A stretch of 34,031 bases of DNA from assembly GCF_001435895.1 (NCBI RefSeq), contig NZ_AZFZ01000029.1:1-34031 (forward strand), read 5' to 3'. Origin of the DNA: Lentilactobacillus parafarraginis DSM 18390 = JCM 14109. GTDB lineage: Bacteria > Bacillota > Bacilli > Lactobacillales > Lactobacillaceae. Positions 3,521 to 34,031 of the stretch are shown one piece after another (position 1 is the first letter of the stretch; each line of letters starts with the position of its first letter). The position numbers were made by a program, and so were the translations under genes. A model generated the notes under the pieces. That model was not told the DNA's origin and ran no database searches. It saw nothing but the letters and a program-made list of their open reading frames with translations.

Positions 3521-5176
3521 TTATTTTCGTTTCAACAACCAATAGGTCACGTTGGCACTCTCGAAATTCTGGGTGTGATTGGTGACCACGCGGTAATTTT
3601 TGAGTAGCGGCTTAGCAATCTTTTTGGTTCCTGGATTGATATTACCGCTGATAATTTTGCCAGCCATATTGGGGCTGCCGTTCCACTTGTTAATTTGCTT
3701 ACCAGCCGGGGTATTTAGAACCACCCACTGAACCTGATGCTTTTTGATGACATTCAGTTGACTGTCCAGAATTTCGGGCGCCTTACTATGCGGAATGTTA
3801 TAGTTCTGGAAATAGTAAGTACTCGGCAGGGCGCCGGACGTGGTGTAAAAGCCCATGTCAATTGAACCGTAATTGAGCATTGTTGGTCGGCCCTTACTTT
3901 GGGCCCGCATGATACGGCCAAACTCAATTTGGGCGGGCTGCTGCGGTTTGTTGGTCTGATTAAGGGTAACGGAACCGTTATTCGGAAAGATTCGCGAACT
4001 TAAAATGTTGTCGTTGACCCCCAAAACGAGGAAGAAACTGAGCAGTGCGCAACTGATTAGGACCATGGATTCGTTTTTCTCGGTAATTTTGACGTCGAAC
4101 CGCTTAATCGCGTTGATCAGTGCAAACACCCCGGGGATAACCAGGTACGGGAAGAAGGCGAGTTCATAGTACTGGTACACTTGCCCAGAATGGTAGCCGT
4201 AGACAATGAAAGCCGCGTTGACGACCATCATCATGACAAATAACATTTTGCCCCAAGCTGATTTGAATGCCGACCGACTGAACAATAGGTAAACGTATCC
4301 CAGAAAACCGCAGAGAAAGATCAACGGATCCTGGCGAAGAAAGCTGCTGTAAATGGTCAGTGACTCGATGAACTTAGCGAATACCGAGTTGTTTGACAGC
4401 ATGTAAATGTGCATGTTTTCGTAAAAGTAAACGTGAAAGAAATCGCCAAGGGAGTGAGTTGCCAGGAAGAAGATTAACCAGGGACCAACGGCAATCGCAA
4501 ACCCCAGCGCGCTCCAGCCAATGAGTTTGGAAATTTCCGGCCACATTTTTTTCTTAACGTAGTACCCAAACATTGCCAGGTAAAAGATGATCCAGCCACC
4601 CAGTAAGGTGTATTTCATCAAAAAGGTCAGCCCAACTAAAAACCCTTGAAGCGTCCAGTCCCAGCGCACAATCACAAATTGATTGCGGTCCGCTTTTAGT
4701 AAGGTGTAAATGAGTGACAGCATCGCTGCAAACAGCAGTGATTCCACCGTATCACCATAGTTATAGTAAGGGTGAAACAGTTGAAATAGTGGCATTAAAA
4801 TTGCAATCGCGCACGCCGCGAGTTGATAAGTATACATTCTGGCGATTTTATAAACTATGTACATTGATAGAAATAGACTCAGCACTTCAAACGGGAACAT
4901 CCCCAGAAGGGAGTGACCGTTGAAGAGGGACGCGATGCCGTGAATCAGGTAAACATAGGGGCCTTTTTGTTCGAAAACGTCCTTATATGGCAGAATTCCG
5001 TGCATTAGGGCCTTGCCAACCGTGAAGAAACAGTTGTTATCTGGAGAATAGTCGAAGTAAAATAGCGGCGACGTATAACTAGCAAACCCCATGAACCAAA
5101 TGCTGATAATGAGGAAAAACAGCAGGTAGGCGCGTTTGGACAGCCAATCCTTTATCTTTACAAACACAATAATCAC
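3521..5176 (-). CDS. GT39/ArnT-like membrane glycosyltransferase
   Basis: A 551-residue integral membrane protein with about 11-12 hydrophobic helices. The first outer loop (about residues 40-80) reads SPDNNCFFTVGKALMHG followed by PYKDVFEQKGP, the pattern of GT39/PMT-like enzymes in Gram-positives (D near a membrane helix, then PYKD-x-F-x-x-KGP). Such enzymes transfer a sugar from a lipid-phosphate donor on the outer membrane face. The C-terminal 150 residues form a soluble outer domain containing GSIDMGFYTTSG and LKNYRVV, typical of the family. The GTG at 5176 is used; its ribosome site is weak (GAGAATTGA). A TATACT box (5205-5210, minus strand) could be its -10 element. It is the first gene of the operon with the PTPS-related protein. 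Substrate unknown. Confidence 0.78.
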   Translation of the reverse strand: MIIVFVKIKDWLSKRAYLLFFLIISIWFMGFASYTSPLFYFDYSPDNNCFFTVGKALMHGILPYKDVFEQKGPYVYLIHGIASLFNGHSLLGMFPFEVLSLFLSMYIVYKIARMYTYQLAACAIAILMPLFQLFHPYYNYGDTVESLLFAAMLSLIYTLLKADRNQFVIVRWDWTLQGFLVGLTFLMKYTLLGGWIIFYLAMFGYYVKKKMWPEISKLIGWSALGFAIAVGPWLIFFLATHSLGDFFHVYFYENMHIYMLSNNSVFAKFIESLTIYSSFLRQDPLIFLCGFLGYVYLLFSRSAFKSAWGKMLFVMMMVVNAAFIVYGYHSGQVYQYYELAFFPYLVIPGVFALINAIKRFDVKITEKNESMVLISCALLSFFLVLGVNDNILSSRIFPNNGSVTLNQTNKPQQPAQIEFGRIMRAQSKGRPTMLNYGSIDMGFYTTSGALPSTYYFQNYNIPHSKAPEILDSQLNVIKKHQVQWVVLNTPAGKQINKWNGSPNMAGKIISGNINPGTKKIAKPLLKNYRVVTNHTQNFESANVTYWLLKRK

Positions 5177-16546: not shown

Positions 16547-17197
16547 ATGAACAGATCCAAAAAGCATTTTCGGGGAAGACGATTAGCCGTTTGGGGACTC
16601 TTGGGGGTCCTTGTTTTGCTTTGCCTGGGCCTTATTTTTAACCAGCAGCTTGCAATGCTGCTGGTAAGGCATAATCAGGCGCAGTTGGCTCATTTGCCAA
16701 AGTCGACCTTAGTTCAAAATGATCGGCAAAAGCACTGGGAGAGTCATCCTGCGAAGGTGAGAAACTTTTCAAACGGTGACGCGGTTAAATCCGTTTCACA
16801 ATCGGCCCAAAATAAACGGGCGACGGTTGCGTACTTGAATATCCCGGCAATTAATGTTCATCTGCCAATCCTGTATCAGGTCACCAATGCCCATTTAGCC
16901 GTGGGAGTGGCCACCCTGCGGGCAAATCAGAAGCTGGGAAAGGGCAATTACGTTGTCTTCGGCCATAACTTTGAGAATTCAACGATGCTGAGCAATTTGC
17001 AAAATCTGCATAGGGGAAACACCATCACCGCCACCAATGGCCTGCATACTTATAAATATCGCGTTACCAAGAACATTGTGATTAACGAATATAATTGGCG
17101 ATACACCAAGCCGACCAAGCATAAGGTGATGACCGTGATTACCTGTGCTGATGGTGGGGCTACTCGCCAGATGGTCAGAGCAAGGCTGGTATCGTAA
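16547..17197 (+). CDS. srtA: Class A sortase
   Basis: A 216-residue membrane-anchored transpeptidase that cleaves LPXTG-type motifs and links surface proteins to the cell wall. Residues about 12-32 form the N-terminal membrane anchor. The sortase barrel spans about residues 92-216, with catalytic H140 in VFGHNF, C200 in TVITCADGG and an arginine at 207 (R211 is the alternative). The protein stops right after the last strand, as class A enzymes do. The ATG is preceded by TGGGGGAACG. It lies about 11 kb upstream of the giant Ala/Ser-rich surface protein and would be the expected enzyme if that protein carries a C-terminal LPXTG motif beyond the window. Confidence 0.92.
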   Translation: MNRSKKHFRGRRLAVWGLLGVLVLLCLGLIFNQQLAMLLVRHNQAQLAHLPKSTLVQNDRQKHWESHPAKVRNFSNGDAVKSVSQSAQNKRATVAYLNIPAINVHLPILYQVTNAHLAVGVATLRANQKLGKGNYVVFGHNFENSTMLSNLQNLHRGNTITATNGLHTYKYRVTKNIVINEYNWRYTKPTKHKVMTVITCADGGATRQMVRARLVS

Positions 17198-18298: not shown

Positions 18299-20152
18299 AT
18301 GACAAATCATCACGGGGAAGAAGCACTTTTTAATGCGGCCAGCCCGGTCTTTAATGATCGGATTCCGCAAACTTTAATTGATCAATCAAATGAGCTCGTT
18401 TTAGCCGCACGTCCAATTTTCGGCAGTCTTCCAAAAAATACTGCTGATCAGACGTTTTCTTTGACTTTGAAAACGTTACGAATCGAACGCCAGTTGAAAC
18501 GGGCCCAGACTGTCTCTGAAGCACTCAAAAAACAGTTAAGCACGCAGCTTAATGCCGAGTTTAAAGCGCTCGAAGTCCAGTTGAATCAGGTGAACCATGA
18601 GCTGAATCGATACGCCCCGCGGCATGATGAAAATGGCAGGGGTACGAAGGATCAATTGAGACAACAGCTCGATGGGTTAGCCAAAACCCATAATGCGCTG
18701 CTAACTCAGGGTGATCAGATCAAGGATCAGCTGCGAGCTCGCAAAATTAAGCAGGCGAAGTTAGCTCAGGTTGCCGCCAATTTAACCGGTCGGCTCAAGG
18801 ACCTGGACTACTCTTTTTCAGGTGTGATTGAGACAATCAAGAAAATGCAAAATCCCGACGAAGCCGATGGTGCCCTGGCAAGCATCTCAGCGGAGTCAGG
18901 TTCTTTCAGGTCGCTTATTTCAGATACTCGACGGCGGCTTAACGAGGTCCAGGCGGCTTCCAAACAGCTGGATCTTGAAATTGACGAATTAAATAAGCAA
19001 ATCGGTTCACAAAACTCCCACATGGCATCGCTCGGCCTTCAACTTGGTCAAATTGCGAAGGTCGTCAGCTTTTCCAGTGGGAGTTTTAAGCATGGCAGAA
19101 ATCGGGATCCTTCACAACAGAATGTCGAAGTCGTCCAGAGAATGCAACGGCAGCGTGATTGGCTGGTTAAACGGCTTAAGTCAATTGCCGCCTCCCAAGC
19201 ATTATCCAGGACGGGTCATGCGATGATGCCCCAGTTTATTGCTGATTCGGGACATCACTATTACATTTATTCCAATACACTGCAGCCGGAAAATAAAAAC
19301 ATTGATTTTGAGCTTAAACGGCTGATGACCGTATTTGACGGCGTTGAGCCCCAGACAACCTTGCTCACCACGCAATTTAGTGACGATGGGCCAGCTGCGT
19401 TTCAGCAATACGTTGCAAGAAACGTGATTAGTGATCAGGTAACCTACACGAATTTGTATGATGACCTTTTCCGCTATGACAAACGGTTTGCCGGGCTGCA
19501 GGTTGGATCGCTGCTACACCGAATGCACGAACAGGGATGGCGTCGAGAAGATGTCGATCCCGATGGTGGGCAGATATGGGTACGTGAAGCGCTGAGGCGG
19601 AAGTTGTTTTTGCGGGCCGACCAAACGGTTCGTCAAATCTTTAGTTACGACCGCAACCAAGTCCTCATTCAGGTCGATGTCTTTAGTCCTGAAGAGCAGC
19701 TCATGGCGACCCAGTATATAAAAAATGGTAACCAGGTTTCCACTGAGGATTTCTTCCGAAAATCGGACCACAGTGTCGTGATTTCCAAGGAATATCGGGA
19801 TAACCGGTTACTCAATATTCAAGTTCGCGACCGCTCAGGAATCCTGGTTTCGGTGTTAAAAGACCCGATTGACCTGGAGCGATGGTGGTTTAATCAAAAA
19901 CTGACGAGTTCCCGCGACGTGTTGGTCTTGGATGGCCAATCGGAACTTTGTCACCGGTTGATGACTGATTCAGACCGCAAGTTCTCACTGTTACCGATTT
20001 TTTCGACTTTCGATGCCAAGCAACCGGTTGAAACCGATATTTTGGCGGGAAAGGGTGATTTTGCGGGGGTACTGGCAGTTGATCAGCAGGTATTGGCGGC
20101 GTTGGCGACAGCGCCCCACGGAGTATTTGATATCGCGGTAATTGGGGATTAA
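18299..20152 (+). CDS. Coiled coil fused to a half GtfA/GtfB-like module (1)
   Basis: A 617-residue soluble protein and first gene of the cluster; AAGAGGGAATTATC precedes the ATG. Residues about 55-300 are heptad-like, rich in Leu, Gln, Lys and Glu, and predicted coiled coil. From about residue 317 the protein resembles the first half of GtfA/GtfB-type transferases: a hydrophobic strand (HYYIYSN), an NLYDD motif at 385-389 where the transferases have NLFDF/NMYDF, then a strand-rich stretch (about 441-520) matching their extended beta-sheet (DUF1975-like) domain. It ends about where those enzymes start their nucleotide-sugar domain; no E-x7-E motif exists. So it is likely non-catalytic. Infer a scaffold or acceptor-binding partner of the GtfA/GtfB pair. 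The domain comparison is by eye and needs a structure-based test. Confidence 0.75.
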   Translation: MTNHHGEEALFNAASPVFNDRIPQTLIDQSNELVLAARPIFGSLPKNTADQTFSLTLKTLRIERQLKRAQTVSEALKKQLSTQLNAEFKALEVQLNQVNHELNRYAPRHDENGRGTKDQLRQQLDGLAKTHNALLTQGDQIKDQLRARKIKQAKLAQVAANLTGRLKDLDYSFSGVIETIKKMQNPDEADGALASISAESGSFRSLISDTRRRLNEVQAASKQLDLEIDELNKQIGSQNSHMASLGLQLGQIAKVVSFSSGSFKHGRNRDPSQQNVEVVQRMQRQRDWLVKRLKSIAASQALSRTGHAMMPQFIADSGHHYYIYSNTLQPENKNIDFELKRLMTVFDGVEPQTTLLTTQFSDDGPAAFQQYVARNVISDQVTYTNLYDDLFRYDKRFAGLQVGSLLHRMHEQGWRREDVDPDGGQIWVREALRRKLFLRADQTVRQIFSYDRNQVLIQVDVFSPEEQLMATQYIKNGNQVSTEDFFRKSDHSVVISKEYRDNRLLNIQVRDRSGILVSVLKDPIDLERWWFNQKLTSSRDVLVLDGQSELCHRLMTDSDRKFSLLPIFSTFDAKQPVETDILAGKGDFAGVLAVDQQVLAALATAPHGVFDIAVIGD

Positions 20153-20193
20153 CGCGACAGCTCGTTTAACAACGCATTGAAGAGGGGGTTCAT

Positions 20194-21750
20194 ATGTTTT
20201 TCTTCTTAAACGATGGCATTAACTTTAATAAATCAGGGATTGAACATGCTCAGATCAAACGACTTCGATTGTTCAACGAATATGGGCAACCGGCTAAAAT
20301 TGTGACGCGTCAATTGGCAATGAATTTGCACGAGATTACGGCTGACGCGGGGATTGCGGATAAGGATTTCGTTAACCTGTTTGATTTCTTTCAGGGGACA
20401 ACCATGTATAAGCCGCAGCGCTTTACGATGACCGACCTCGACTTACCTAGTGATTACACTTACGAAGCCGAGGGCGACGAAAAGATCCACGTGAAGGATC
20501 ATGGTCAGCAAATTATGATCGTGGCCAAACGGTCCAAGGATGACGACCGGTTAAATTGGGTCCAGTACTTTGGCAGTAACGGCCGGCTGGTTCACATGGT
20601 ATGGTATGACACCCGCGGATTCGCGGCTTTGGAGCAGTTCTTCTCGTTTGGAACCAAGTTGGTTTCAGAGCAGTTGCTGGCGCCAAACGGCAAGGTAGTG
20701 TATCAGCGTTACCGCCTTCCAAAGCGGGATGGCGCGGCTGACACCTCCCTGCAGCGGATCATTGACTTTCACGGCCGGGACTACAAATTTGCCGGGTTCA
20801 ATGATCTCACGACGTTCTTTTTGGACCAGTTGAATTACGCAACCGGTGAGGCCAATGCGATTATCGTTGACCGAACCTTTGAGTTAGCCTGGGCGGTTCA
20901 GCACATGGATACGCCAATCTTTAAAGTGATGCATTTGCATAACAATCACGTGAACGATAGTCGTGACAGTCAGCACTCGGATTTGAACTTTAATTACCAG
21001 TACATGATTACCAACCGCCGGCGCTGGGATGGCATCATTGCCCTGACACCGTGGCAATACGATGACTTCACGAAGCGCTTTGGCAAGAATCGCCCGAAAG
21101 TGTACGACATTCCGGGTGCCGTGACTGACGACGCGATTTTGAAGAAGCCCCACGTCAAATGGGCTACCAGAAAGCCGCATTCAGTCATCATGGTTGCCCG
21201 TTTATCACCGGAAAAGCAGCAGGATGATTTAATCCACGCCTGGAAAACGGTGCACCAACAGGTTCCGGATGCCACGTTGGATTTCTGGGGTTACAGCAAC
21301 GGCGATACCGGCAAACAACTCCGTGAGCTGGTAACTAAACTCGGATTGAATGACACCATCACGTTCAACGACTATTCGAACAACATTTCAAAAGTTTATG
21401 AAGCGGCACAATTATTGATTCTGCCGTCAAGAGCGGAGGGGCTGCCACTAACGTTGGTTGAAGCCCAGGCCCATGGGTTGCCGATTATCGCGACGGATAT
21501 TAAGTATGGGCCGCGGGATGTGGTCAACGATACCGTCGATGGGTTCTTAATCAAGAACCATGACATTTCTGCCTTGGCTGACAAGATTATTGAACTCCTC
21601 ACCCATCCCAAAGAAATTCAAGAATTTAGTGAAAATGCTTACAAGGACAGTTGGAAATATTCGGGCCAGTCAGTCTGGAAAAAGTGGCTGCAGCTGGTCA
21701 AGGACGCCCAAAAGCAGGCGCAGGTTCCCGAAAGAATTGAGGTGAGCTAA
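20194..21750 (+). CDS. gtfA: GtfA-like GT4 protein glycosyltransferase
   Basis: A 518-residue cytoplasmic retaining glycosyltransferase with GT-B fold, of the GtfA/TagE/TarM group. Layout: N-terminal acceptor Rossmann part (1-90, NLFDF at 61-65), extended beta-sheet insertion (DUF1975-like, about 90-190), rest of the acceptor domain with HLHNNH (247-252), and the nucleotide-sugar domain from about 325. Donor-site residues R336 and K341 (ARLSPEK) and the E-x7-E pair E415/E423 are intact, so it should be active. In Lactiplantibacillus plantarum a GtfA/GtfB pair of this kind adds GlcNAc to Ser/Thr in Ala-Ser-Thr-rich domains; in accessory Sec loci GtfA does the same to serine-rich adhesins. Wall teichoic acid glucosylation is the main alternative. 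AGAGGGGG precedes the ATG, and the next gene starts 2 nt after its stop. Confidence 0.87.
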   Translation: MFFFLNDGINFNKSGIEHAQIKRLRLFNEYGQPAKIVTRQLAMNLHEITADAGIADKDFVNLFDFFQGTTMYKPQRFTMTDLDLPSDYTYEAEGDEKIHVKDHGQQIMIVAKRSKDDDRLNWVQYFGSNGRLVHMVWYDTRGFAALEQFFSFGTKLVSEQLLAPNGKVVYQRYRLPKRDGAADTSLQRIIDFHGRDYKFAGFNDLTTFFLDQLNYATGEANAIIVDRTFELAWAVQHMDTPIFKVMHLHNNHVNDSRDSQHSDLNFNYQYMITNRRRWDGIIALTPWQYDDFTKRFGKNRPKVYDIPGAVTDDAILKKPHVKWATRKPHSVIMVARLSPEKQQDDLIHAWKTVHQQVPDATLDFWGYSNGDTGKQLRELVTKLGLNDTITFNDYSNNISKVYEAAQLLILPSRAEGLPLTLVEAQAHGLPIIATDIKYGPRDVVNDTVDGFLIKNHDISALADKIIELLTHPKEIQEFSENAYKDSWKYSGQSVWKKWLQLVKDAQKQAQVPERIEVS

Positions 21751-21752
21751 CC

Positions 21753-23291
21753 ATGTACTTTTTCTTAAATCAATACATCATGGCGTTAAATTCCGGCCTT
21801 GAACATGCTGAAATGAAGCGCCAGGCACTTTTCAAGAAAAAGGGCGTGGCTTCCAGAATTGTGACGCGCGATTACGACCGGTCTCTTCATCGAAACGCCG
21901 CTGAATTCGGTCTTGATCAGGATGATTTGGTGAATATGTATGACTTCTTTCAGGACAGCGTCACCGTCACGCCCCAAAAGTTAACCACGAAATCATTGAA
22001 TTTGCCGATTGCCTATCAGGTCAGCCCGGACAACAACCTTTCTCAGGTCTACGAAGGTGATCGACTGGTGTTGAACATTCACCATACGCCGGGCCGGGTT
22101 GGTGAGTTATTCTTCACCGAATATTTCGACGAATACGGAAATGTGACGAACCGGGTACTGTACGACTCGCGGGGATTTAAGTCATCTGAGCAGTTTCTTA
22201 ATGGGGATGGCGTCGTGTACGCGGAAATCTTCTTTAAGCCGGATGGCACCCGCGCGATTGAGCGGTATTATGAAAAGCTTCCGGATTCAAAAGCGGCACC
22301 AATTATCTTTAACATTCGCCTGATTAATTATCAGGGGCGCGACTACTATTTCAATAGCGAAGCGGATTTCTTCACATTTTTCTTAAACGAATTGAACCAA
22401 TCAGAGGGTGGCAACAACGTCTTTATTGCCGACAGACCGGCGATTGCCAACATGCCGATGATTGAAATGAAGACACCGGCGCGCAAATTAATTTGGTTCC
22501 CGATTCTGCACGCCGTTTCGCCCGCGGATCAGGTTGACTCGGAACTTGATGGTAACTATAAGGTTGCCCTGAGCAGTCACCTTAACGACATTGATGGCTT
22601 AATTACCATGACCGAAGCCCAGGCCCGCCAGTTGCGCACGCGGCTGCATGATGACCACTTACCAATCTATGTCATTAATGGGGCGCCCGTTAGTACCAAA
22701 CAATTACGCAAGAAGAAGCTGCCGGCGGTCAACCGGGTTGGCAGCAAAGTCCTCTACGTGGGGCGGCTCGATGCCAGTAAGGGTGTTGACAATCTGATTC
22801 GGGCCTTTGCGTTAGTTGCCCGGCAGGTTCCCGAGGCCCGGTTGGATATTCGGGGTTATGGGCCGACCGATTACGTTAAGATCCTGGAGAATTTAATCAA
22901 AGATCTCAAGTTGAACGACAAGGTGGCGATTTCCGGTTATACATCAAAAATTGATGACGTTTACGATACCGCGAAAGTTTTCGCAACGGCTACTAAGCAG
23001 GATGCCTTCCCCCTGGCAATGGTCGAGGCACTCTCCCATGGGTTGCCGTTGATTGCCTTTGATGTCAATTACGGGCCCAAAGAAATTATTGAAAACGGCC
23101 AAAACGGCTATCTGTTGAAGGATGGCGACATTTACAACCTGGCGCAACGGATGATTGAACTGTTAAAGGACCCGGCCCAGCTGGAAGCAATGAGCGAAAA
23201 TGCCTACCAATCGGCAAAACGGTATTCAATGACAAAAATATGGCAACAGTGGCAGCAGTTGCAGAAAACGCTCGCGACGCAGCCGACATAG
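21753..23291 (+). CDS. gtfB: GtfB-like partner glycosyltransferase, altered active site
   Basis: A 512-residue homologue of the preceding GtfA-like protein with the same domain order: NMYDF at 61-65, extended beta-sheet part with YFDEYGNVTNRVLYDSRGF (124-142), then acceptor and nucleotide-sugar domains. Differences in the active site can be seen. The HLHNNH of GtfA is replaced by ILHAVS (251-256), and the first Glu of E-x7-E is Asp (D417, with E425 kept). Donor residues R338 and K343 remain. It may therefore be a substrate-binding partner that activates GtfA, as GtfB does in known pairs, or a second enzyme with another sugar. Unlike streptococcal GtfB it keeps a full C-terminal domain. The 2-nt gap to gtfA indicates coupled translation, in line with a heteromeric complex. 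Confidence 0.85.
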   Translation: MYFFLNQYIMALNSGLEHAEMKRQALFKKKGVASRIVTRDYDRSLHRNAAEFGLDQDDLVNMYDFFQDSVTVTPQKLTTKSLNLPIAYQVSPDNNLSQVYEGDRLVLNIHHTPGRVGELFFTEYFDEYGNVTNRVLYDSRGFKSSEQFLNGDGVVYAEIFFKPDGTRAIERYYEKLPDSKAAPIIFNIRLINYQGRDYYFNSEADFFTFFLNELNQSEGGNNVFIADRPAIANMPMIEMKTPARKLIWFPILHAVSPADQVDSELDGNYKVALSSHLNDIDGLITMTEAQARQLRTRLHDDHLPIYVINGAPVSTKQLRKKKLPAVNRVGSKVLYVGRLDASKGVDNLIRAFALVARQVPEARLDIRGYGPTDYVKILENLIKDLKLNDKVAISGYTSKIDDVYDTAKVFATATKQDAFPLAMVEALSHGLPLIAFDVNYGPKEIIENGQNGYLLKDGDIYNLAQRMIELLKDPAQLEAMSENAYQSAKRYSMTKIWQQWQQLQKTLATQPT

Positions 23292-23303
23292 GAGGTGGCT
23301 TCA

Positions 23304-25361
23304 ATGAGTTTTTTCCATCCATTCAGAGATCGAAAAAAAGCTAAGAAACAGCAGGAATTGACATTGCAGGACAAGCAGCCAGATAAAAAGGATCCCGAAA
23401 AATCTTCAGCTGATCCGGCCGTCAAGCAACGATCGATTTCCACTAACGTTGCGTATGATCTGTCAAAATCAACCGGCAAGAAAGTGAAGCCGGTTGCCCA
23501 AGATTCCCGGGACCAGTCGGCGACGACTTTGGCCAATTTGGAATCCGTCACGGCAACCCGGGAATCGATTGAAAGTGATATCAAATCAATTTATAGCCGC
23601 CTTCACGAGGTTCAAAATAGTCTGAAAGACAATTTAAACCGGGAGTCTGGACTCATTCAGGATCAAATTGCTTATAGTGATTCCAAGCGGCGGATGGTTG
23701 ATCGCAAGTCCGAACACATCCGCAACTCGATCGACGATGTGAAGAGCAAGCTTGCCGAACTGGATTTGAAGAAGCTTGACGCTCAGGTGGCCCAGCTTCG
23801 GGAACGCAAGCAAATCACTGAAGATGACCAGCATAATAACGAAGTGCGGATCACCTCGATTCAGCAGCAGATTGCCGAGAGTAAGAAGCAGCGTGGTGCG
23901 CTTCAACAGGACATTCGCAATTTGGAGGCGGATAAAAACGACCTGTTTGTCCAGCTGAAGAGCGAAGACAAGGTTGAAGTATTCTTGGAAAAGGCCGAGC
24001 CGGTTCGTAACCAAATTAAGGCGCTTACCAAGCAGCAGGATCAAAAGGCGGCTGACATCGAGAAGATGGTCGATCGCGAGAAACAGCTTCAGGAAACGAC
24101 CGAAAAGGTGACCGAGCAGAATAAAACGCTGCAGGATCGCTTAAATGATATTGAAACCACCATTGAGCAAATCGGTCACCGCCGCAATAAGTGGCAGGCC
24201 GACATTGGTGAATACGAAGCGTCATTGAAGGACCTGAACAGCCAGCTTGTCGCCACAACCCAATCCTCTGAAGCCCTAGAGAAGCAGCGTGGTGAGTGGG
24301 ACAAACGCCTTAAGGTTGTTCAGCAAAAACTTCTACAGTTTACCAACGCCAACGTTTCAACCAGCAATATTGACCTTGGGCACGGCAGTTATTACTTTTA
24401 CACGCCGGATGTGCCCCAAATAACTCAAGAAAATCAAGATGTGATTCGCGGCTACGAACAGTTTTTTAAGCAACGGCACATCACCCCGATCTTACTAACG
24501 ACGGCCTATAACGAAGAGGGCCAACGCCAGTTATCGGAATTAAAGCGCAAGGGCAAGATTGATAATCAGGTCACCATGATCAATTTGTATGATGACCTTC
24601 AGGGGCGCTTGACCACCCGAATTCCCAAGAAAATTGCGTTTACCCCCGATCCGACTTGGCGAAAAGAAGAAGCAAAGCATGCCAATCAGATTCAGTACTT
24701 TAACGTTAATGATGAAGTTGTTCGGGTGGTGGTGTACCGACCAAATCGACCGCAAATTTGGATGATTAACTATTTTGAAACTGGTCAACTGATGAAACGG
24801 GATGTGTTTGATCATGACGGGTACCTGTCCGTGACGCAGACCTTTGATATTTTGGATCACAACCAAATTAAGGAGGAACGGTTCTATAAGGATGACGGGT
24901 CCGTTCGTTTGGTGAAACACTATGACACCTTTGCCGGCGACCTCATCGATATTCAAGTAATGGATGATCAGGAATTATTATTTAACGTCTTTCATTCCGA
25001 GGTTGATTTTGAGGCAAACTGGATTCGCCAAAAGATTTCCGAGCAGGATCAAAGCCGGCTAATGATTAATGTTTCCTATCCCGGATTTGCGCAACTTGCC
25101 GGGTCTGGCAGTGCCAGCTACTCATTGATCCCGATCCTTGATTCCATGAATCAGGACAAGCTAAAGGATGCGTTGGACCGGGCCAATCTGGTTCAAACCG
25201 TGGCCACGGATGACGAAAAGAAGGCCCAGCAATTTCAGGACTGGTTCGGCCAACGGTATTCAATTTGGATTATCAAAAAAGCCGATTACGACCCTAATAA
25301 TTTTCACATGGTATTGCCTAACGTTACGGGTGGTAAACAGGCGTCGACACCAGGAGGCTGA
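23304..25361 (+). CDS. Coiled coil fused to a half GtfA/GtfB-like module (2)
   Basis: A 685-residue soluble protein, start chosen at ATG 23304 because AGGAGG overlaps the gtfB stop and lies 8 nt upstream. Residues 1-70 are basic and polar. Residues about 75-350 are a long predicted coiled coil. From about 357 the sequence matches the N-terminal half of GtfA/GtfB: YYFYTPDVPQ, then NLYDD (427-431), then a beta-sheet part containing YFETGQLMKRDVFDHDGYL, which lines up with YFDEYGNVTNRVLYDSRGF of GtfB. It ends without the nucleotide-sugar domain. It is clearly related to the 617-residue protein that opens the cluster, and the two flank the gtfA-gtfB pair. Likely a non-catalytic subunit; membrane or complex scaffolding through the coil is inference. 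Confidence 0.75.
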   Translation: MSFFHPFRDRKKAKKQQELTLQDKQPDKKDPEKSSADPAVKQRSISTNVAYDLSKSTGKKVKPVAQDSRDQSATTLANLESVTATRESIESDIKSIYSRLHEVQNSLKDNLNRESGLIQDQIAYSDSKRRMVDRKSEHIRNSIDDVKSKLAELDLKKLDAQVAQLRERKQITEDDQHNNEVRITSIQQQIAESKKQRGALQQDIRNLEADKNDLFVQLKSEDKVEVFLEKAEPVRNQIKALTKQQDQKAADIEKMVDREKQLQETTEKVTEQNKTLQDRLNDIETTIEQIGHRRNKWQADIGEYEASLKDLNSQLVATTQSSEALEKQRGEWDKRLKVVQQKLLQFTNANVSTSNIDLGHGSYYFYTPDVPQITQENQDVIRGYEQFFKQRHITPILLTTAYNEEGQRQLSELKRKGKIDNQVTMINLYDDLQGRLTTRIPKKIAFTPDPTWRKEEAKHANQIQYFNVNDEVVRVVVYRPNRPQIWMINYFETGQLMKRDVFDHDGYLSVTQTFDILDHNQIKEERFYKDDGSVRLVKHYDTFAGDLIDIQVMDDQELLFNVFHSEVDFEANWIRQKISEQDQSRLMINVSYPGFAQLAGSGSASYSLIPILDSMNQDKLKDALDRANLVQTVATDDEKKAQQFQDWFGQRYSIWIIKKADYDPNNFHMVLPNVTGGKQASTPGG

Positions 25362-25396: not shown

Positions 25397-26659
25397 ATGC
25401 AGGATCGCTTTGATGAATTGATGGATGATCTTTTTGAACGGTTTGATTTTGTTCATAGCGATATCCGGTTGGCAGATTTGCTGGATTTAGGGTTATTTCT
25501 TGCCCGGCGTTACGGGGCAATGCCGCCGTACCCGTTTCCGATGGTCTATTCAACCATTCAGAGTCGGCTGTCGCTGCAGCTTATTGAGGATTTAATCTGG
25601 GCTGACCATTGGACGTTGGCGCAGTTGGAAACGTTTCTTCTTCGGGCCGAACAGCTATACATCACCAAAATAGCGGACTGGCAACAGCTTGCCGGACCCC
25701 ACGCGCAACGGCTTGCCGAATTAGTGACGGATGCCAAACTGCGTTATCTGCCACTGGCGACCGTTGACCTGGCGGCGGATCTGGATTTTAAGTCCAACGC
25801 TGACGAAAAGTTTTACGGCGTTGAGCAGGTCACGTGGTACCAGAATACCGACGCGATCCAGGAATTTGATGAGCGGGTAGCCCTTCCCGGCAACGTGGCA
25901 ATTATCACCGCCCTAAAGGATCAGCTGCACGAATACAGTCCGCAGGGGACGCTGGTCCTCTCAAATCAACGGCTGGTGCACCACTACCGGGATGCAAACG
26001 GTGAGTTAGTCATCAAACAGCTGCAGGTCAGTAAGCTTTCAGTGGTGAAAATTTATCAAGACGCGGTCCTCATCTGGATGGACCAGCTGCCCCTCCTGTT
26101 GAAAACGGCCAACCCCAATGAGTTGGGGACGCTGATTCTCAGGCTAATGAATGCGACGGAGACTGATTCTTTTGTCACCAATGGGCTGACGATCGATCAC
26201 GACCAAATTGTCCTGGCAAAGCCAGCGGCTAACGAGATTTTTCACCAGGCAAAGGATCAGTTAACGACGTTTGCGGGGACGCAGTTTGAGCTCACTTTTC
26301 AAACCCATCAGCAGGTGGTTGATTTATCGCTACTGCTGGCAAATGACCATCTGGCCGCCCGCGTCCGTCAGCTATTGGCGGCAAAGGACGTTGTGAAGTG
26401 GCGGGACACGATCAGTACGCCGCTGCTGAAAATCATCTTTCGACTGTTATTTATCGGGTACGACGTGAACCTAGAAGTGATTGATCCGTTTGCAGCGGAT
26501 GGGGCCACCATTTTATTGGAGATGCTGGCCGGTAACCTAACCGTTAATTTGGGAGTGGGACTACAACGCCCAATTTCTCAGTTTAACAACGATCAGTTAA
26601 TTATGAATACCGAGGCGGGCTTGATTGACCGCCGTTCACTGAAGTATTTGGCAACTTAA
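25397..26659 (+). CDS. Cluster protein with a PH-like central segment
   Basis: A 420-residue soluble protein that I cannot place in a named family. GAGGAGG lies about 11 nt before the ATG and the gene follows 35 nt after the previous one. The N-terminal part (1-160) looks all-helical, with aromatic and acidic residues. Residues about 165-252 show the strand pattern of bacterial PH/GRAM-like domains: TLVLSNQRLVHHYRD, then a QLQVSKLSVVKIYQD strand, then VLIWMDQLPLLLKTANPNEL and a closing helix LGTLILRLMN. Such domains often bind lipids or proteins. The C-terminal part (260-420) is helical and mixed. There is no signal peptide or membrane helix. Its place between the glycosyltransferase set and the Ala/Ser-rich proteins suggests a role in delivering the substrate or docking the complex at the membrane. 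Confidence 0.65.
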   Translation: MQDRFDELMDDLFERFDFVHSDIRLADLLDLGLFLARRYGAMPPYPFPMVYSTIQSRLSLQLIEDLIWADHWTLAQLETFLLRAEQLYITKIADWQQLAGPHAQRLAELVTDAKLRYLPLATVDLAADLDFKSNADEKFYGVEQVTWYQNTDAIQEFDERVALPGNVAIITALKDQLHEYSPQGTLVLSNQRLVHHYRDANGELVIKQLQVSKLSVVKIYQDAVLIWMDQLPLLLKTANPNELGTLILRLMNATETDSFVTNGLTIDHDQIVLAKPAANEIFHQAKDQLTTFAGTQFELTFQTHQQVVDLSLLLANDHLAARVRQLLAAKDVVKWRDTISTPLLKIIFRLLFIGYDVNLEVIDPFAADGATILLEMLAGNLTVNLGVGLQRPISQFNNDQLIMNTEAGLIDRRSLKYLAT

Positions 26660-26719
26660 GGGGATGGTGCCAAAGTGGGGCTTTACTAAATATCTCAAAA
26701 TGGGTCTGGTGATAACGTG

Positions 26720-27964
26720 ATGAAAGAATCAAGAAATCAACTAAATACATCTTCCGGCACCTCTCCCAATAACGATAAAATGGCGGCAAATGCGCTTTCG
26801 ACAGCCAGTGCAGCCGTAACTCAGGCGTATGAAGCCAGCGAAAGCCTGCTGGTTGCTCAGGTGGCGGCTGCCAATGAATCGCAGAACACCGTGGTGGCTG
26901 ATTGGGTAAAAAAAGCTGCCGCAGCGTATTCGTCGGCTGATTCTTATGCAGCCGTTGCCAGTGCAGCTGCCAGTGACCTGCAGGTGAAGTCGGGGGATGC
27001 CAAAGCGGTGGCGTCGGGCAGCCAGCGAATTGCCAGTGCGGCAAAGATGGTTGGCGCCCAAGTTGATTTGGCGAAGGCTCATGCCAGTGCGGCGGTTAGC
27101 GCGACCGACCAACAGGCCACGGCGCCGCTTGCCAAAAAAGCAGCGGGTTCAGCGACCGCTTATCACCAGCAGATTCAAGCGTTAGCGTCAAAAACCGCTA
27201 AGGCGTTACAATTGGCGGCCAGTGATTATGATCGCGCCACGGTTGCGGCTGCTGCCGGCGGCCTCACCTCGGCGGGGGCGCTGTCAATGACGGAGTTGGA
27301 TCAGGCGGCTTCCGAAATTCAGACGCTTGCCGGCGTTAATGATCTGGGTGTTCAGCTGTCATCTGATTATGCCAGCCAGGCCGCGTCGTATGCTGCCGAT
27401 GGAAACGGTATTTATGCCCAAGTTGCCGCGATTGAGCTTTCTCAAAGCGTTGATCTGTTGAAGTCGGCAAATGATTATATTACCCAGTATGCACAGCTGA
27501 TGAATCATCATGCCACCGCCATTTTTGAAGGGGCCGATCAGGTGGCGCCATCTGCTGAGCCACCCATGCAGCCGGCGGGCAGCGAGTCGGACCCATCACT
27601 TGACGGTTCGGATACGCTGCCCGCTGATCAATCATTGGCTGCAGCGGCCGTGACTGAAGAACCAAGCGCGTCGTCACCAGCGACTGATTCTCACGTTCCA
27701 AGCGCATCTTCGGCAGCTGTTGGGAAACAAAACGCCACAAGCTCGGTTGAAATGACAACGCCGAAGAATGGCACGGCGGGAGTTGTGCCGCCGATTGTCG
27801 CCCCGATTGTGCCGGTTGGCCCACCAGAAGAAGCCCAAGCGCATTCCGGGACCACGCCACCCGCCGCGAATTCGGCTCAAGAAGCGGCCCAGGCAAGTCG
27901 TCACCATGGGGTAGCAGAACAAGAAAACGCCCAATCCGCTGCTGAAATGGCATTGATTGGATAA
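26720..27964 (+). CDS. Ala/Ser-rich protein without signal peptide
   Basis: A 414-residue protein starting MKESRNQLNTSS. A GTG directly before the ATG (26717) is an alternative start; the ribosome site is weak (TGGTGA). No signal peptide or membrane helix is present, so it should stay in the cytoplasm. Residues about 20-270 are very rich in Ala, Ser, Gln and Asp and look helical (AAAAYSSADSYAAVASAAAS), much like the repeat region of the giant surface protein downstream. Residues about 275-395 are Pro/Ser/Thr/Ala-rich and probably disordered (VVPPIVAPIVPVGPPEE). No LPXTG or repeat unit is found. Options: a substrate mimic or chaperone for the adhesin, a glycosylated cytoplasmic protein, or a scaffold. 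Function unknown; the frame is supported by its strong amino-acid bias and gene spacing. Confidence 0.65.
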   Translation: MKESRNQLNTSSGTSPNNDKMAANALSTASAAVTQAYEASESLLVAQVAAANESQNTVVADWVKKAAAAYSSADSYAAVASAAASDLQVKSGDAKAVASGSQRIASAAKMVGAQVDLAKAHASAAVSATDQQATAPLAKKAAGSATAYHQQIQALASKTAKALQLAASDYDRATVAAAAGGLTSAGALSMTELDQAASEIQTLAGVNDLGVQLSSDYASQAASYAADGNGIYAQVAAIELSQSVDLLKSANDYITQYAQLMNHHATAIFEGADQVAPSAEPPMQPAGSESDPSLDGSDTLPADQSLAAAAVTEEPSASSPATDSHVPSASSAAVGKQNATSSVEMTTPKNGTAGVVPPIVAPIVPVGPPEEAQAHSGTTPPAANSAQEAAQASRHHGVAEQENAQSAAEMALIG

Positions 27965-28161: not shown

Positions 28162-31100
28162 ATGACCTTAGACTTACTGAACAAGAGTAAGCGGCATGCC
28201 TATCGATTGGCGAAAGCTAATCCCAAGCAGCGCTACAAGATGTATAAGTCACATAAGGGTTGGTTAATTGCCTCGATGACGATCCTGTCTTTTGGATCTG
28301 AATTCGTGTTAGGCAACGTGCATCAAACTAAAGCCGACTCTACGGGGAGTGACGCATCAAGTTCGAGTAGCTCGACTGAAAGTTCCACTGCCAATCAAGG
28401 CGTTAATGTGAATTACGTTGATACAGATGGTAATCAGGTTGCTGAAAGTCAAACAATCGTCCCTGCCCAGGGAGGCACTTACGACCAACCGCAACAGGTT
28501 GAAATTCCGGGTTATGCGTACGTTGGAACTGAAGGGAGTTCACAACAGGCGGCCGGCAATTCAAGCTCGGTCACTGTGCGTTACGCGAAGGTGACCACGC
28601 CTGATTCCACGACCCAATCAACGAATGATGGGGCGTCTTCACAGGCATCTGATACAACCGGCACCCAGGCGCAGAGTGAGTCAAGCGCGCAAACTGCTTC
28701 GAGTACACAGTCGGCGGCAAGCGCCGTCGCCGCAACACCAAGTGCCAATGTCACAACGGCGACGACTTCGGCCGCAGCTGATGACAGTAGCCTGACAAGT
28801 GCCAGTCAAAGCACGATTGATAACGCCAGCGCAATGGCTGCAAGTCAATCAGCTTATGACGCCATTCAAGCTCAAAATAAAGTTTTGAGCCAGGCTGCCA
28901 GCACGGTTTCACAAGCTTCATTGACGGATCCTGATCAAGCGGACATCTCGGATCATAGCGTTGCCTTTGACCTTAATGGCAACCACACGTTTGCTTCCGG
29001 ATCGGATTTATTTGCCCAGTCAGATTCAACAGCTGATCAAGGCGCCGCCTCAGCGCAAACAACGACCAGTGACGTGCCGGTTCTTTCAGGAACAACTTCG
29101 GCTGCCGTTGAAGTCAAGAGTACTGATCCTAAATTACAAGCCGGTCTGGATTTACTTAATCAACTGGCCGTAACCCGGGACGTTGCTTCTGACGTTGTCG
29201 TTGACAGTACCACCAGTCGGAAACGTGAGGGGGGCGTTCCAGCCGATTTTGATTTGGAACAGCTGGCACCAACCGCCATGACTTTGGGGGCAAGTTCGTT
29301 AGCTGCCACACCGGTTGCTGAAAATCTTGCCGCTGCGGCGGACGCTGCAACAGACAGCCAGTTTTCATTCTCATACAGTGATTATCGCACTAATCCTGAT
29401 GGGTCCAAGGCAGGATGGACCAACGATGTCGTTGTTACAAACGTCACATTTAATGCCGGTGACTCAAATGCGGCTAGTGCGTTTGCGACGGGGGACACTT
29501 TTTTCAATGCTACTTCAGATCCTTCTGAAGTTACGTTTAACTTTGGAAATGGTGCAAGTCTTAAGATCACCCCAACTAATCTTTTACCTGCGGGAACAAC
29601 TTATAATATCGATTACTCTCGGCCAATAGGCACTCATTCCGGTCCTTACGCGACAATAGTGGTTAGCCAAGCAAAAGTTGGGACGACCTTAGCAACAACG
29701 GCTGGACGACCTGGGGATGCCAATATTCCCGTTTGGAATGCTAACAATGATTATAACAAGCCTGGTACCTATGCCGTAATGCTTGATTTTTCAAGTAACC
29801 AGCCAAGCGCGGGAGCACCGTTTCCTTATGGAGGCGCCTATTACTTCTTAGTCACGATTAAAGACAGCAGTGCCGAAAACGCTGCTTCCGATTATGCCTT
29901 GGCTCAGTCCGGGCAAGCCCAGATTAACCAAGATTTGGCCAATGCAAGTAATGCGAAGGCCCATTATAGTGATGCCGCAACGAGTGCATATAACCAAGTA
30001 TCCACAGCTGCATCGGCGGCCGCTATTGCAATGGCCGCTGCTTCAGCCGCTGCAAAGGCGGCGAGTGACGCAACGGCCTCCGGTGGCTCTGACGCGGTTT
30101 CCGTCGCGGCTTCACAAGCTGCAATTGCTTCGGCTCAAGCGGCCGCAATTGCTAAACTTGTGCCAACAGCCGCAAGTAATGCCTCAACTGCGGTATTTCT
30201 TGCTACCGCAGCCGCTAATTCCGCTGCCAATTCTTACAATGTCATTGCCAGTTCCGCTGCAGCCACTTCCCCAGTCGCTTCGTCGGACGCAGCTGTTGTC
30301 GCTGCGGCATCCGACGCCGTTGCCAGTTATGCTACATTGGCAAACAGTGACTATCGGGATGTCACGGCAGGTTCAGGAGCCGGTAACCGAAGTGATGCCG
30401 GGACCAATGCCCAATCCGCATACGATGCCGTTGCTTCCGCTTCCGCTGCTGCCGCCGATGCCGCTAACAAGGCGGGTCACTCGGATGACGTTGTGAAGGC
30501 AAAAGCCGCCGCCTCAACCGCCGTTTCACAAGCGACCGCGGCTCAAAGCCAGATTGCTCAAGATGTCAAGAACGCTTCTGACGCGCGAGCCGCATACCCA
30601 TCTGATACCCGGGTTGCGAGTCAATACGCCAATGCAAATGCTGCCGCTCAGTCAGCCAACGCTGCGTTGTCGGCTGCCAAGGCCGCCAGCGATGCGATTA
30701 ACTCATTGGCTGCCGGGCAAGTGACATCAGCGGTTTTCGATCAGATTTCTGCCGCTGCTTCAACGGCTGTTTCACAAGCAAGCTTGGTTGCAGCTGCGGG
30801 ACCAAAGGCCGCCTCGGCCGCATCGAATGCCGTTTCCGGGGCTACCAGTGACGCGGTTTCTGCCGGCAATTCGTACAGCGCCATTGCCAGTGCGGCTGCT
30901 TCAGCTTCGCCAGCCGCTGCCAGTGATGCTGCCGCTGCTTCCGACGCCGCCAGCACCGCTGCAAGTTACGCCGCTAAGGCAAACAGCGAGTACGCGCAAG
31001 TAGTTGCTGGCTCGGGTGACCGAAGCGCTGCCGGAAGTGATGCCAGTGCCGCATACGATGCTATCAAGACTGCCAGCGCCGCTGCTTCTGACGCTAAGGA

Positions 31101-34031
31101 TAAGGCGGACTCCGATGCTGCTCCAGGTGTCATGAGTAATGCCAAGTCGACCGCTTCGGCAGCCGTTGCCTCGGCAATTGCCGCCCAAGCTAACATGGCC
31201 CAGGACGTGAAGAACGCTTCTGATGCCAATGCCTACAGTAAGGATGCATCCGGGGCATACCGGGACGTTATTGCGGCATCCAACGCCGCTTCGGCAGCCG
31301 TTGCCTCAGCTCAGGCCGCATCTAACGCCGTTGCTTCTTACGCTGCTCAAACCATTAGCGCTTCAACGGCCGCATTAGCCAGTGCCGCTGCTTCAACGGC
31401 GGCATCACAGGCCGTAATTGTTGCCAGCGCGGCTTCAACCGCTGACGGTCGGGCTTCGGCTGCCGTTTCAACGGCTACCAGCGCGGCTCAATCAGCTGCT
31501 GGTTCCTACTTTGCGATTGCCAGTTCAGCCGCAACCGTTACCTCCGATGCTTCCGCGGCAGCTGTTCAGGCTACCAGCGCATCCGCCGCCGTAACGAGTT
31601 ACGCCAACGCGGCTAATAGTGATTATGCGAATGTTGTTGCCGGATCCGGGGATCGTTCTGACGCTGGGGCCAATGCTCACAACGCGTACGATGCCGTTGC
31701 GTCAGTTTCGGCCGCCGCATCTGCCGCTAAGAACGCTGTCGATTCGGCAAGTGCTAACAGTGCCATGTCAGGTAATGCTGCGGCTGCTAATTCGGCATAC
31801 TCGGCCGCATCCAACGCTGCGGTTATCGCCAAAAATGACGCCGATAACGCCAAAGCTGCGCATGACTTTACGCCAAACAACGTTGCCGTCAGTGATGCTG
31901 CCAGCACGGCTGCCTCCAACGCTGCTTTGGCAAGCAACGCTGCTTCAGCTGCGCGGGCTGCTGCAATGGCTGCCAACCAAGCACTGGCTAACAAAGATAC
32001 CAGTGGGGTTGCCACCGCATCGGCCGCTGCCAATGCTGCTTTGGCAAGCGCTCATTCAGCAGCGTTGCAAACTGCCAGTGCCGCTTCTGACGCCATTTCC
32101 GGTGCCACAAGCGATGCCGTTACCAGTGCCGCTGCTGCCAGTGCTGCCTCGGCCGCGCCTTCCAACGCGGCGATTAAGAGCGGGGCCGCCACGGTAGCTG
32201 CCTTAGCCAGTGATGCGGTTATCGCTGCTTCGGCTGCCAACTCAGCTGCCAGTGCGGCAGTTGATGCGGCTTCAAGAAATGACGATACCGCTCACGGACC
32301 TGCTGCTTCGGCTGCCGGTTCTCAAGCTGCCCGCGCTTATAGTGATGCGAAGGCCGCTTCAACCAGCGCCGGCGCCTTGGACAGTGCTGCTAAGAGTGAC
32401 GCGGCAAGTAATGCTGCCAGCGGTGGTCAGCAATACGCCACGGATGCCAGTAAGTTTGCCGATGCTGCTAAGAGTTACGCTTCGCTCGCTTCAGGAAATT
32501 CAAGTGATGCGGCTTCATTAGTGGCTAAGCACGTCACCGATCCGACATACGCGAAGTTTGCTTCCGATGCTGCGTCTCAAAATACGATTGCTTCCGGGGC
32601 TGCCTCTGACGCAGTGATCGCTGCTGCTTCGGCCAGTGCTGCCGCTTCAGATGCAACCGCGGCTTCCAAATCAGGAAACGCCGAGGCTGCTGGAAGTGCG
32701 GCTACCATTGCCCAACAGCAACGTAACCGGGCTTCTGATGATGCCGATAAGGCTTCAGATGCTGCCAGTGCTGCTAAGTTAGCTGCTGATTCAGCTGCTA
32801 GCCGGGATAAGTCAGATGCTGTCAACTCAGAATCCGGCGCGATCAATAGCGGGGCTGCTCAAATTCACGGTTACGCTAGCGATGCCGCTTCAGCTGCCAG
32901 TCAAGCTAAATCAGCAAGCAGTGAAATTGGTGGGCTATCAAGTGCCCATCCTGGCAATCCGCAAATCACCAGTGATCAGAGTATTGCTTCAGATGCTGCC
33001 AGTGCTGCGAGTGCCGCTGCTCAATCAGCTGCAACCGCTGACGCTGTCGCCTCAAAGGCCGCTTCTGATTACAACAAGGCGGTTTCTGACTTTAACGCTG
33101 CCGGCCAACAACTTCCTGATTCGATTACCTCAAACGCTAAGAAAGCAATTTCCGATGCCCAAAGTGCTGGTTCCGCAGCCGATTCTGCTGCGCAATCACA
33201 AAATGCAATTGCTCAGAATGCGTTGTCCGATGCAAAGAGTGCGGCTGATAAAGCAAGCTCAAGTTCCGCTCAATCAGCTGCCAGCGCCGCTTCAAACGCT
33301 GCCGTAAGTGCCGGAAACTTTGCTTTACAAGCGGCTTCTGATGCCAAAACGGCCAGTGACGCTGCCAGCGCCTTTCCAAATGATCCTAATTTGGCTGCTG
33401 ACGCTCAGTCGGCTGCGAGTGCTGCAAGAGTTGCTTCTGATCAAGCGGCGATGGTTTCCAATGCTGCCAAGTCCGCTAGCGATGCCGCTGCTAAGACCCC
33501 GGCTGATGCTTCGGCTGCTTCAAATGCGGCATCCGCTGCTTCGAATGCTTTAGCTGCCGCCAGTGCTGCTGGTTCCCAAGCCGCTAGTGCCGCCCGGGAC
33601 GCGATCAATCGCGCTACGAGCTCAGCTGCCAGTCAAGCCAACTCAGCATCCACATCGGCCGCCGTTGTAGCATCTAACGCGCCAACCAACGCTGACATCC
33701 AATCACAAGCTCGAAAAGTCAGTGATTTGGCGTCGGCTGCCAATGCGGCTTCAACCGCTGCGGTTGCTGATGCCCGGGCTGCCAGCGACGCGGCTGCTTC
33801 TGGTCGGCCATCCGATCAGGCCAGCTACGCCCGGGCTGCCAGTGATCAGGCTCAAAGTGCTTACGCCGCTGGTAGTGCTGCTGCCAGTGAAGCTAAGGCG
33901 ATGTCCGATAGTGCCGCAAACGGTGCCAAGTCGGACGCCTCAACCGCCGTTTCTGATTTCTCAGCCGCAAGTTCTGCTTACGCTGAGGCCAACAGTAACG
34001 CTAAGAAGCTGTTTAGTATCTTTGATTTTGA
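28162..34031 (+). CDS. Giant Ala/Ser-rich surface adhesin, 5' part
   Basis: The frame opens at ATG 28162 (AAAGGGGGAGAAG upstream) and stays open through the right edge: at least 1956 residues, C terminus missing. Residues 1-58 form a long signal peptide of the KxYKxGKxW type: K26, Y28, K29, K32 and W34 match, but G at 31 is His; cleavage is likely near residue 58. Residues 60-80 are Ser-rich. Residues 81-143 resemble a MucBP-like domain (VNVNYVDTDGNQVAES to SVTVRYAK). After an Ala/Ser/Thr-rich part, residues about 401-570 look like a beta-rich binding domain (FSFSYSDYRTNPDGSKAGW). From about 575 on the protein is almost only Ala, Ser, Asp, Asn and Val, with four units of about 211 residues. 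Such proteins are usually O-glycosylated before export and sorted to the wall; here the upstream gtf cluster is the likely modifier. Any LPXTG lies outside the window. Confidence 0.88.
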   Translation, partial: MTLDLLNKSKRHAYRLAKANPKQRYKMYKSHKGWLIASMTILSFGSEFVLGNVHQTKADSTGSDASSSSSSTESSTANQGVNVNYVDTDGNQVAESQTIVPAQGGTYDQPQQVEIPGYAYVGTEGSSQQAAGNSSSVTVRYAKVTTPDSTTQSTNDGASSQASDTTGTQAQSESSAQTASSTQSAASAVAATPSANVTTATTSAAADDSSLTSASQSTIDNASAMAASQSAYDAIQAQNKVLSQAASTVSQASLTDPDQADISDHSVAFDLNGNHTFASGSDLFAQSDSTADQGAASAQTTTSDVPVLSGTTSAAVEVKSTDPKLQAGLDLLNQLAVTRDVASDVVVDSTTSRKREGGVPADFDLEQLAPTAMTLGASSLAATPVAENLAAAADAATDSQFSFSYSDYRTNPDGSKAGWTNDVVVTNVTFNAGDSNAASAFATGDTFFNATSDPSEVTFNFGNGASLKITPTNLLPAGTTYNIDYSRPIGTHSGPYATIVVSQAKVGTTLATTAGRPGDANIPVWNANNDYNKPGTYAVMLDFSSNQPSAGAPFPYGGAYYFLVTIKDSSAENAASDYALAQSGQAQINQDLANASNAKAHYSDAATSAYNQVSTAASAAAIAMAAASAAAKAASDATASGGSDAVSVAASQAAIASAQAAAIAKLVPTAASNASTAVFLATAAANSAANSYNVIASSAAATSPVASSDAAVVAAASDAVASYATLANSDYRDVTAGSGAGNRSDAGTNAQSAYDAVASASAAAADAANKAGHSDDVVKAKAAASTAVSQATAAQSQIAQDVKNASDARAAYPSDTRVASQYANANAAAQSANAALSAAKAASDAINSLAAGQVTSAVFDQISAAASTAVSQASLVAAAGPKAASAASNAVSGATSDAVSAGNSYSAIASAAASASPAAASDAAAASDAASTAASYAAKANSEYAQVVAGSGDRSAAGSDASAAYDAIKTASAAASDAKDKADSDAAPGVMSNAKSTASAAVASAIAAQANMAQDVKNASDANAYSKDASGAYRDVIAASNAASAAVASAQAASNAVASYAAQTISASTAALASAAASTAASQAVIVASAASTADGRASAAVSTATSAAQSAAGSYFAIASSAATVTSDASAAAVQATSASAAVTSYANAANSDYANVVAGSGDRSDAGANAHNAYDAVASVSAAASAAKNAVDSASANSAMSGNAAAANSAYSAASNAAVIAKNDADNAKAAHDFTPNNVAVSDAASTAASNAALASNAASAARAAAMAANQALANKDTSGVATASAAANAALASAHSAALQTASAASDAISGATSDAVTSAAAASAASAAPSNAAIKSGAATVAALASDAVIAASAANSAASAAVDAASRNDDTAHGPAASAAGSQAARAYSDAKAASTSAGALDSAAKSDAASNAASGGQQYATDASKFADAAKSYASLASGNSSDAASLVAKHVTDPTYAKFASDAASQNTIASGAASDAVIAAASASAAASDATAASKSGNAEAAGSAATIAQQQRNRASDDADKASDAASAAKLAADSAASRDKSDAVNSESGAINSGAAQIHGYASDAASAASQAKSASSEIGGLSSAHPGNPQITSDQSIASDAASAASAAAQSAATADAVASKAASDYNKAVSDFNAAGQQLPDSITSNAKKAISDAQSAGSAADSAAQSQNAIAQNALSDAKSAADKASSSSAQSAASAASNAAVSAGNFALQAASDAKTASDAASAFPNDPNLAADAQSAASAARVASDQAAMVSNAAKSASDAAAKTPADASAASNAASAASNALAAASAAGSQAASAARDAINRATSSAASQANSASTSAAVVASNAPTNADIQSQARKVSDLASAANAASTAAVADARAASDAAASGRPSDQASYARAASDQAQSAYAAGSAAASEAKAMSDSAANGAKSDASTAVSDFSAASSAYAEANSNAKKLFSIFDF
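29920..32451 (+). repeat. Four tandem units of about 211 codons in the adhesin
   Basis: Unit starts are marked by QINQDLANASN (29920), QIAQDVKNASD (30550), NMAQDVKNASD (31192) and VIAKNDADNAK (31822): spacings of 210, 214 and 210 codons. A second marker about 141-144 codons into each unit reads NSDYRDVTAGSG (30343), NSEYAQVVAGSG (30982) and NSDYANVVAGSG (31615), and is worn down in the fourth unit (NSAASAAVDAAS, 32239). The end of the fourth unit is approximate. Confidence 0.75.

Follow-up and report, generated by a model that had tools for sequence, protein, structure and literature searches.

Coiled-coil proteins bearing a predicted GtfA/GtfB-type acceptor half flank a gtfA–gtfB pair beside a giant adhesin gene in Lentilactobacillus parafarraginis

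The window analysed here, 34,031 nt of Lentilactobacillus parafarraginis DSM 18390 = JCM 14109 (assembly GCF_001435895.1, contig NZ_AZFZ01000029.1, positions 1–34,031 of the forward strand), encodes two coiled-coil proteins, CC1 and CC2, which flank a gtfA–gtfB pair and which, as judged from homology and predicted fold, are descendants of the GtfA/GtfB enzyme family that have kept only its acceptor half (Rossmann I and DUF1975). They belong to a conserved family without a name that is distributed across many lactobacilli. The favoured reading, to which we assign a probability of about 0.45, is that CC1 and CC2 are non-catalytic adaptors or chaperones for the glycosylation or export of a giant adhesin encoded downstream, acting in the manner of GtfB or Asp1. 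Its computed basis consists of the homology, the predicted fold, the missing donor domain and donor and catalytic motifs, the tandem arrangement of the genes, the atypical signal peptide of the adhesin, and the absence of SecA2 and SecY2 matches above cut-off. The four central genes, correctly located in an earlier sequence-only reading of this DNA, are as follows.

18299..20152, + strand: CC1, 617 aa, with a coil (residues about 46–304) followed by a GtfA/GtfB-type acceptor half (about 319–617)
20194..21750, + strand: GtfA-like GT4 protein with EX7E kept (EGLPLTLVE), likely an active O-linked N-acetylglucosamine (O-GlcNAc) transferase
21753..23291, + strand: GtfB-like protein in which the first Glu of EX7E is Asp (DAFPLAMVE), presumably a catalytically dead partner of GtfA
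23304..25361 (alternative start GTG 23295), + strand: CC2, with a basic N-terminal peptide, a disordered linker, a coil (74–347) and an acceptor half (362–670)

Within this tandem run, 41 bases separate CC1 from gtfA, 2 separate gtfA from gtfB, 12 lie between gtfB and the ATG of CC2, and 35 between CC2 and the next open reading frame (ORF). The ATG at 23304 was preferred over the in-frame GTG at 23295 as the CC2 start because it yields MSFFHPFRDRKKAKK, which resembles the N-termini of some relatives.

The relationship of the C-terminal parts to the enzyme family is carried by profile comparison. When 42 family members, among them CC1 and CC2, were compiled into a profile, it matched one built from 9 Gtf proteins (Prob 99, E 3e-18), reversed-profile controls giving E 0.54 and 0.75, and a search of the PDB with the family profile returned SdgB (E 3.4e-11, chain residues 4–305). 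Furthermore, the predicted C-terminal structures of CC1 and CC2 superpose on the N-terminal Rossmann and beta-sheet (DUF1975) half of the enzyme, in line with the assignment proposed in the sequence-only reading. The shared N-(L/M)-(Y/F)-D-(F/D) motif described there is present as NLYDD, NLYDD, NLFDF and NMYDF across the four proteins, and YFETGQL of CC2 aligns with YFDEYGN of GtfB. Single-protein Pfam matches for the glycosyltransferase half are weak and below cut-off (CC2 PF09318 E 0.0018, GtfA_EBD E 0.13; CC1 none), and neither protein exceeds the cut-off of any curated family.

The homologous region ends, as had been claimed, before the nucleotide-sugar domain: the profile alignment reaches no further than residue 320 of GtfA, short of the opening strand of the donor domain at about 327, and the donor-domain family Glycos_transf_1 gives no match in CC1 or CC2. 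None of the 45 coiled-coil rows has histidine in the SGxEHA column or in either HxNxH column, compared with 8/9, 7/9 and 8/9 of the Gtf rows, and the S, G, E and H of SGxEHA occur jointly in none of the 45. The Asn of NLFD is retained in 39 of these rows. The family additionally has a signature of its own, composed of one invariant Trp and near-invariant Y, N, Q, YR, F, W and P.

Long coils are present in both flanking proteins, as originally predicted, with AlphaFold helices at residues 46–104, 114–182, 186–261 and 273–304 of CC1 and 74–152, 155–219 and 224–347 of CC2, and with heptad periodicity of z 7.1 and 6.1, respectively, relative to shuffled sequences. A helix of 124 residues would span approximately 18–19 nm; the helix breaks in the models, including 182–186 in CC1 and 219–224 in CC2, suggest that the coil may fold back as an arm and not extend as a straight rod. 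Long N-terminal parts (287–378 residues, heptad z at least 5.6) characterize 27 of 44 family members, and shorter ones (133–262 residues, z at most 2.9) the other 17. A basic peptide at the N-terminus fitting MxLF..KK, a pattern defined after the N-termini had been viewed, occurs in 19/44 members and in 13/518 other ORFs of the same loci; it is present in CC2, absent from CC1, and may mediate membrane or partner targeting. A missing donor domain and missing active-site motifs would be expected if CC1 and CC2 were functionless, decaying remnants of GtfA/GtfB genes, but such decay is highly improbable given that the frames are open and free of stops, that the family signature is kept in 42 proteins of 12 genera, and that the long coil is so widely retained.

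A possible mode of action is offered by related enzymes. A serine–aspartate (SD) repeat peptide is reported to sit in the DUF1975 groove of SdgB (PMC8561734), GtfA and GtfB touch the acceptor and one another via DUF1975 (review, PMC5796085), and GtfB is an inactive acceptor-binding chaperone (PMC12809243). A protein with the DUF1975-bearing half alone could bind the acceptor or dock on GtfA. Under the adaptor or chaperone reading, unfolded adhesin would be captured by the half domain, or this domain would use DUF1975 to attach to GtfA in the manner of GtfB, or both; the coil arm would bring several half domains into one assembly or retain the precursor close to the membrane. An aromatic residue at the position of SdgB Phe128 is retained in 17/21 rows.

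The family was found in 46/201 Lactobacillaceae genomes and 12/40 genera. This count is the union of 52 genomes matching CC2 and 44 matching CC1, after manual removal of 11 CC2-matching genomes whose matches resembled ordinary GtfA-family enzymes or short beta-domain hits, and only part of the loci behind it were inspected individually. Named records, drawn from 43 loci via an 11-row alignment subset that is not a census, belong mostly to Loigo-, Agri-, Compani-, Lapidi- and Schleiferilactobacillus. Within the genus of the present strain, full-length members occur in 1/24 genomes, the present one. Plasmids yielded no relatives of the coiled-coil proteins. Among 246 genomes sampled at order level, strong near-full-length matches are confined to Lactobacillaceae; two loci with weaker matches in other families were read, one (L142) a transferase and the other (L141) encoding a family member of 575 aa (E 1.9e-12). 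At class level, matches occurred in 53/398 genomes, the present one included, and the 11 loci read contain full-length transferases or pieces of them, except for a 456-aa ORF in L159.

Gene neighbourhoods differ between long-armed and short-armed members. Of 53 proteins examined, 20/33 long-coil members have a Gtf or adhesin gene no more than three ORFs away, as do 2/20 short ones (Fisher p 4e-4), with adhesins labelled by simple motifs and related genomes treated as independent; after removal of a set of loci partly picked for a nearby Gtf, the proportions are 16/27 and 0/17 (p 5e-5). Several loci, mainly of Loigolactobacillus, lie at contig ends, where neighbours may be missed, and scoring by length placed the L141 member among the short ones despite its coiled N-terminal region (z 8.0). 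Linkage of long-armed members to Gtf or adhesin genes was seen in six sampled genera, to which L141 adds a case from another family, and short-armed members mostly stand alone. Several of the latter (L042, L043, L073, L075 and others) occupy a conserved place, across several genera, between a putative membrane-protein gene and a putative gpmA-like gene.

Several findings weigh against the adaptor or chaperone reading. The half domains of CC1 and CC2 are net acidic (−10 each), unlike the positive acceptor groove of SdgB, and of the basic peptide contacts of SdgB only Arg137 is often retained (12/21 rows), Arg101 being Lys in 4/21, Lys134 remaining Lys in 2/21 and Arg132 being Lys in 1/21. GtfA is absent at E 1e-40 from 17/46 genomes with the family, and its presence shows no association with the coiled-coil proteins (29/46 genomes with them, 83/155 others, p 0.31); the role of acceptor clamp for GtfA/GtfB that the sequence-only reading had envisaged therefore cannot hold for the family as a whole. 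In addition, 13/33 long members are unlinked; the exact CC–GtfA–GtfB–CC order, expected to recur in other genomes, occurs among the loci read in the present genome only; and this genome has a second adhesin–GtfA–GtfB set without a further coiled-coil gene, so that CC proteins are not obligatory for such a set. The genomes without GtfA, the unlinked long members and the many short-armed members in conserved stand-alone places, for instance directly upstream of the presumed gpmA-like gene, would suit a coiled-coil scaffold or polymer-binding protein with a general role in the cytoplasm, having nothing to do with adhesins and captured incidentally by the island. We regard this alternative as unlikely in view of the recurrent linkage of long-armed members to Gtf or adhesin genes, in six genera and L141, and of the placement of CC1 and CC2 in one tandem run around gtfA–gtfB with gaps of only 41, 2 and 12 bases.

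Further features of the window place the four genes in a larger setting.

25397..26659, + strand: 420-aa protein, family unknown, lying in the tandem run after CC2 and before the adhesin
26717..27964, + strand: 415-aa Ala/Ser-rich protein with no significant family match
28162..34031, + strand: Ala/Ser-rich adhesin truncated by the contig end (at least 1956 aa), with a KxYKxGKxW signal peptide and a MucBP domain
16547..17197, + strand: sortase-family protein upstream of CC1, possibly part of the island
3521-5176, − strand: PMT_2 (dolichyl-phosphate-mannose mannosyltransferase-like) protein, 551 aa

The adhesin, whose signal peptide matches PF19258 (E 3.8e-10) and whose composition is 31% Ala and 17% Ser, is the likely substrate of the neighbouring glycosylation genes; its missing C-terminus would be expected to be of the LPXTG type. 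The 420-aa protein has no Pfam or NCBIfam match and, among the 201 Lactobacillaceae genomes, was matched only in its own. The window holds no tRNAs and no RNA families above gathering score, and promoter and terminator scans gave no more matches than shuffled sequence. A defence-system interpretation, prompted by the name of PF20706, was dropped: among nine proteins scanned, this family has matches in GtfA and GtfB alone, located within or close to their GT4 domains. Elsewhere in the genome, at locus L061, the gene for a KxYKxGKxW adhesin of 1793 aa precedes gtfA and a gtfB cut by the contig end, with no coiled-coil genes in view; the genome also carries a third gtfA–gtfB pair, and its only coiled-coil genes of this family are the two in the window.

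Neither SecA2 nor SecY2 was found above cut-off in this draft genome (254 contigs), the sole SecA/SecY matches being sub-threshold and in housekeeping neighbourhoods. SecA2 above cut-off is, moreover, rarer in genomes with the coiled-coil family (2/46) than in the others (32/155; p 0.007, kinship not corrected for). The window would hold an island that makes and glycosylates a giant Ala/Ser-rich adhesin without detectable accessory Sec. This setting also accommodates a rather doubtful alternative, namely that CC1 and CC2 are export factors doing the job of Asp1/Gap1, handing the adhesin over to housekeeping Sec in the absence of SecA2/SecY2 and taking no part in glycosyl transfer. The Asp1/Gap1 models TIGR03713 and PF16993 match neither CC1 nor CC2 at E up to 1, and match 3 and 1, respectively, of the 42 family members at E up to 0.01.

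Other genera, and in one case another family, have variant arrangements in which the coiled-coil proteins are encoded alongside a transferase and a giant adhesin. A coiled-coil pair with one Gtf is found in three genomes of g21 (Schleiferilactobacillus, judging by a named record), and the order CC–adhesin–CC–GtfA in three g24 genomes, where GtfA retains EX7E by reading and further GtfA-family genes are present. At the two g24 loci that are long enough (L079, L144), GtfA is followed, in the place expected for GtfB, by a protein of 241 aa whose only match is to the front part of GtfB. Outside Lactobacillaceae, L141:4967-18609 encodes a Gtf (504 aa), an LPXTG adhesin (3430 aa) and a coiled-coil half-enzyme in succession. 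In a tree of the family, CC1 and CC2 cluster with two g21 copies, though weakly (90/79); the two g24 proteins are closely related to each other within that genus, and an ancient shared CC1/CC2 pair receives no support.

A bolder extension of the adaptor or chaperone reading, which we consider possible, treats the family as split pseudo-glycosyltransferases whose acceptor halves, borne on coil arms, would replace or supplement GtfB and Asp1 in a machine that operates without accessory Sec to capture giant adhesins, glycosylate them and deliver them. The minimal form of such a machine might consist of a single EX7E-keeping Gtf and half-enzymes only, as at the g21, g24 and L141 loci. The family, often encoded with such adhesins, provides a concrete candidate for the means by which lactobacilli without accessory Sec glycosylate very long Ser/Ala-rich adhesins and bring them to the surface; it also suggests an evolutionary splitting of an enzyme, with substrate binding held apart from catalysis.

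In keeping with the novelty claimed in the sequence-only reading, a literature search, largely without subscription papers, covering coiled coils with GtfA/GtfB/serine-rich repeat (SRR) adhesins, Lactobacillus adhesins and DUF1975 showed no description of this architecture among the matches listed, the combination with DUF1975 matching no paper. The GT4 protein O-GlcNAc transferases with DUF1975, GtfA/GtfB and SdgA/SdgB, have the acceptor Rossmann domain and DUF1975 in common with the CC proteins, which differ in lacking the donor domain and the donor-loop and histidine motifs and in having a long N-terminal coil. SMC/Rad50 proteins likewise possess coil arms, but their ATPase head domains were not found in CC2, where all hmmscan matches fall within the coil (for instance, residues 74–343 against 228–500 of 1165 in the SMC model). 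Asp1/Gap1, a dead GT-B protein, keeps both Rossmann halves and accompanies SecA2/SecY2, whereas the CC proteins have a coil and one Rossmann half only, in a genome without detected accessory Sec. The content of accessory Sec clusters, including Asp1 with SecA2/SecY2, is outlined in PMC6973325. The nearest locus found is that of SpcB in Lactobacillus rhamnosus, which differs in that its published Discussion mentions SpcA, SpcC and SpcD and no coiled-coil half-enzyme, although that section describes only some of the seven strain GG ORFs that follow spcA; export by the standard Sec system is an expectation there (PMC3584209). It resembles the present window in its giant Ala/Ser-rich KxYKxGKxW adhesin, its two GtfA-family enzymes and the lack of an annotated accessory Sec (PMC3584209).

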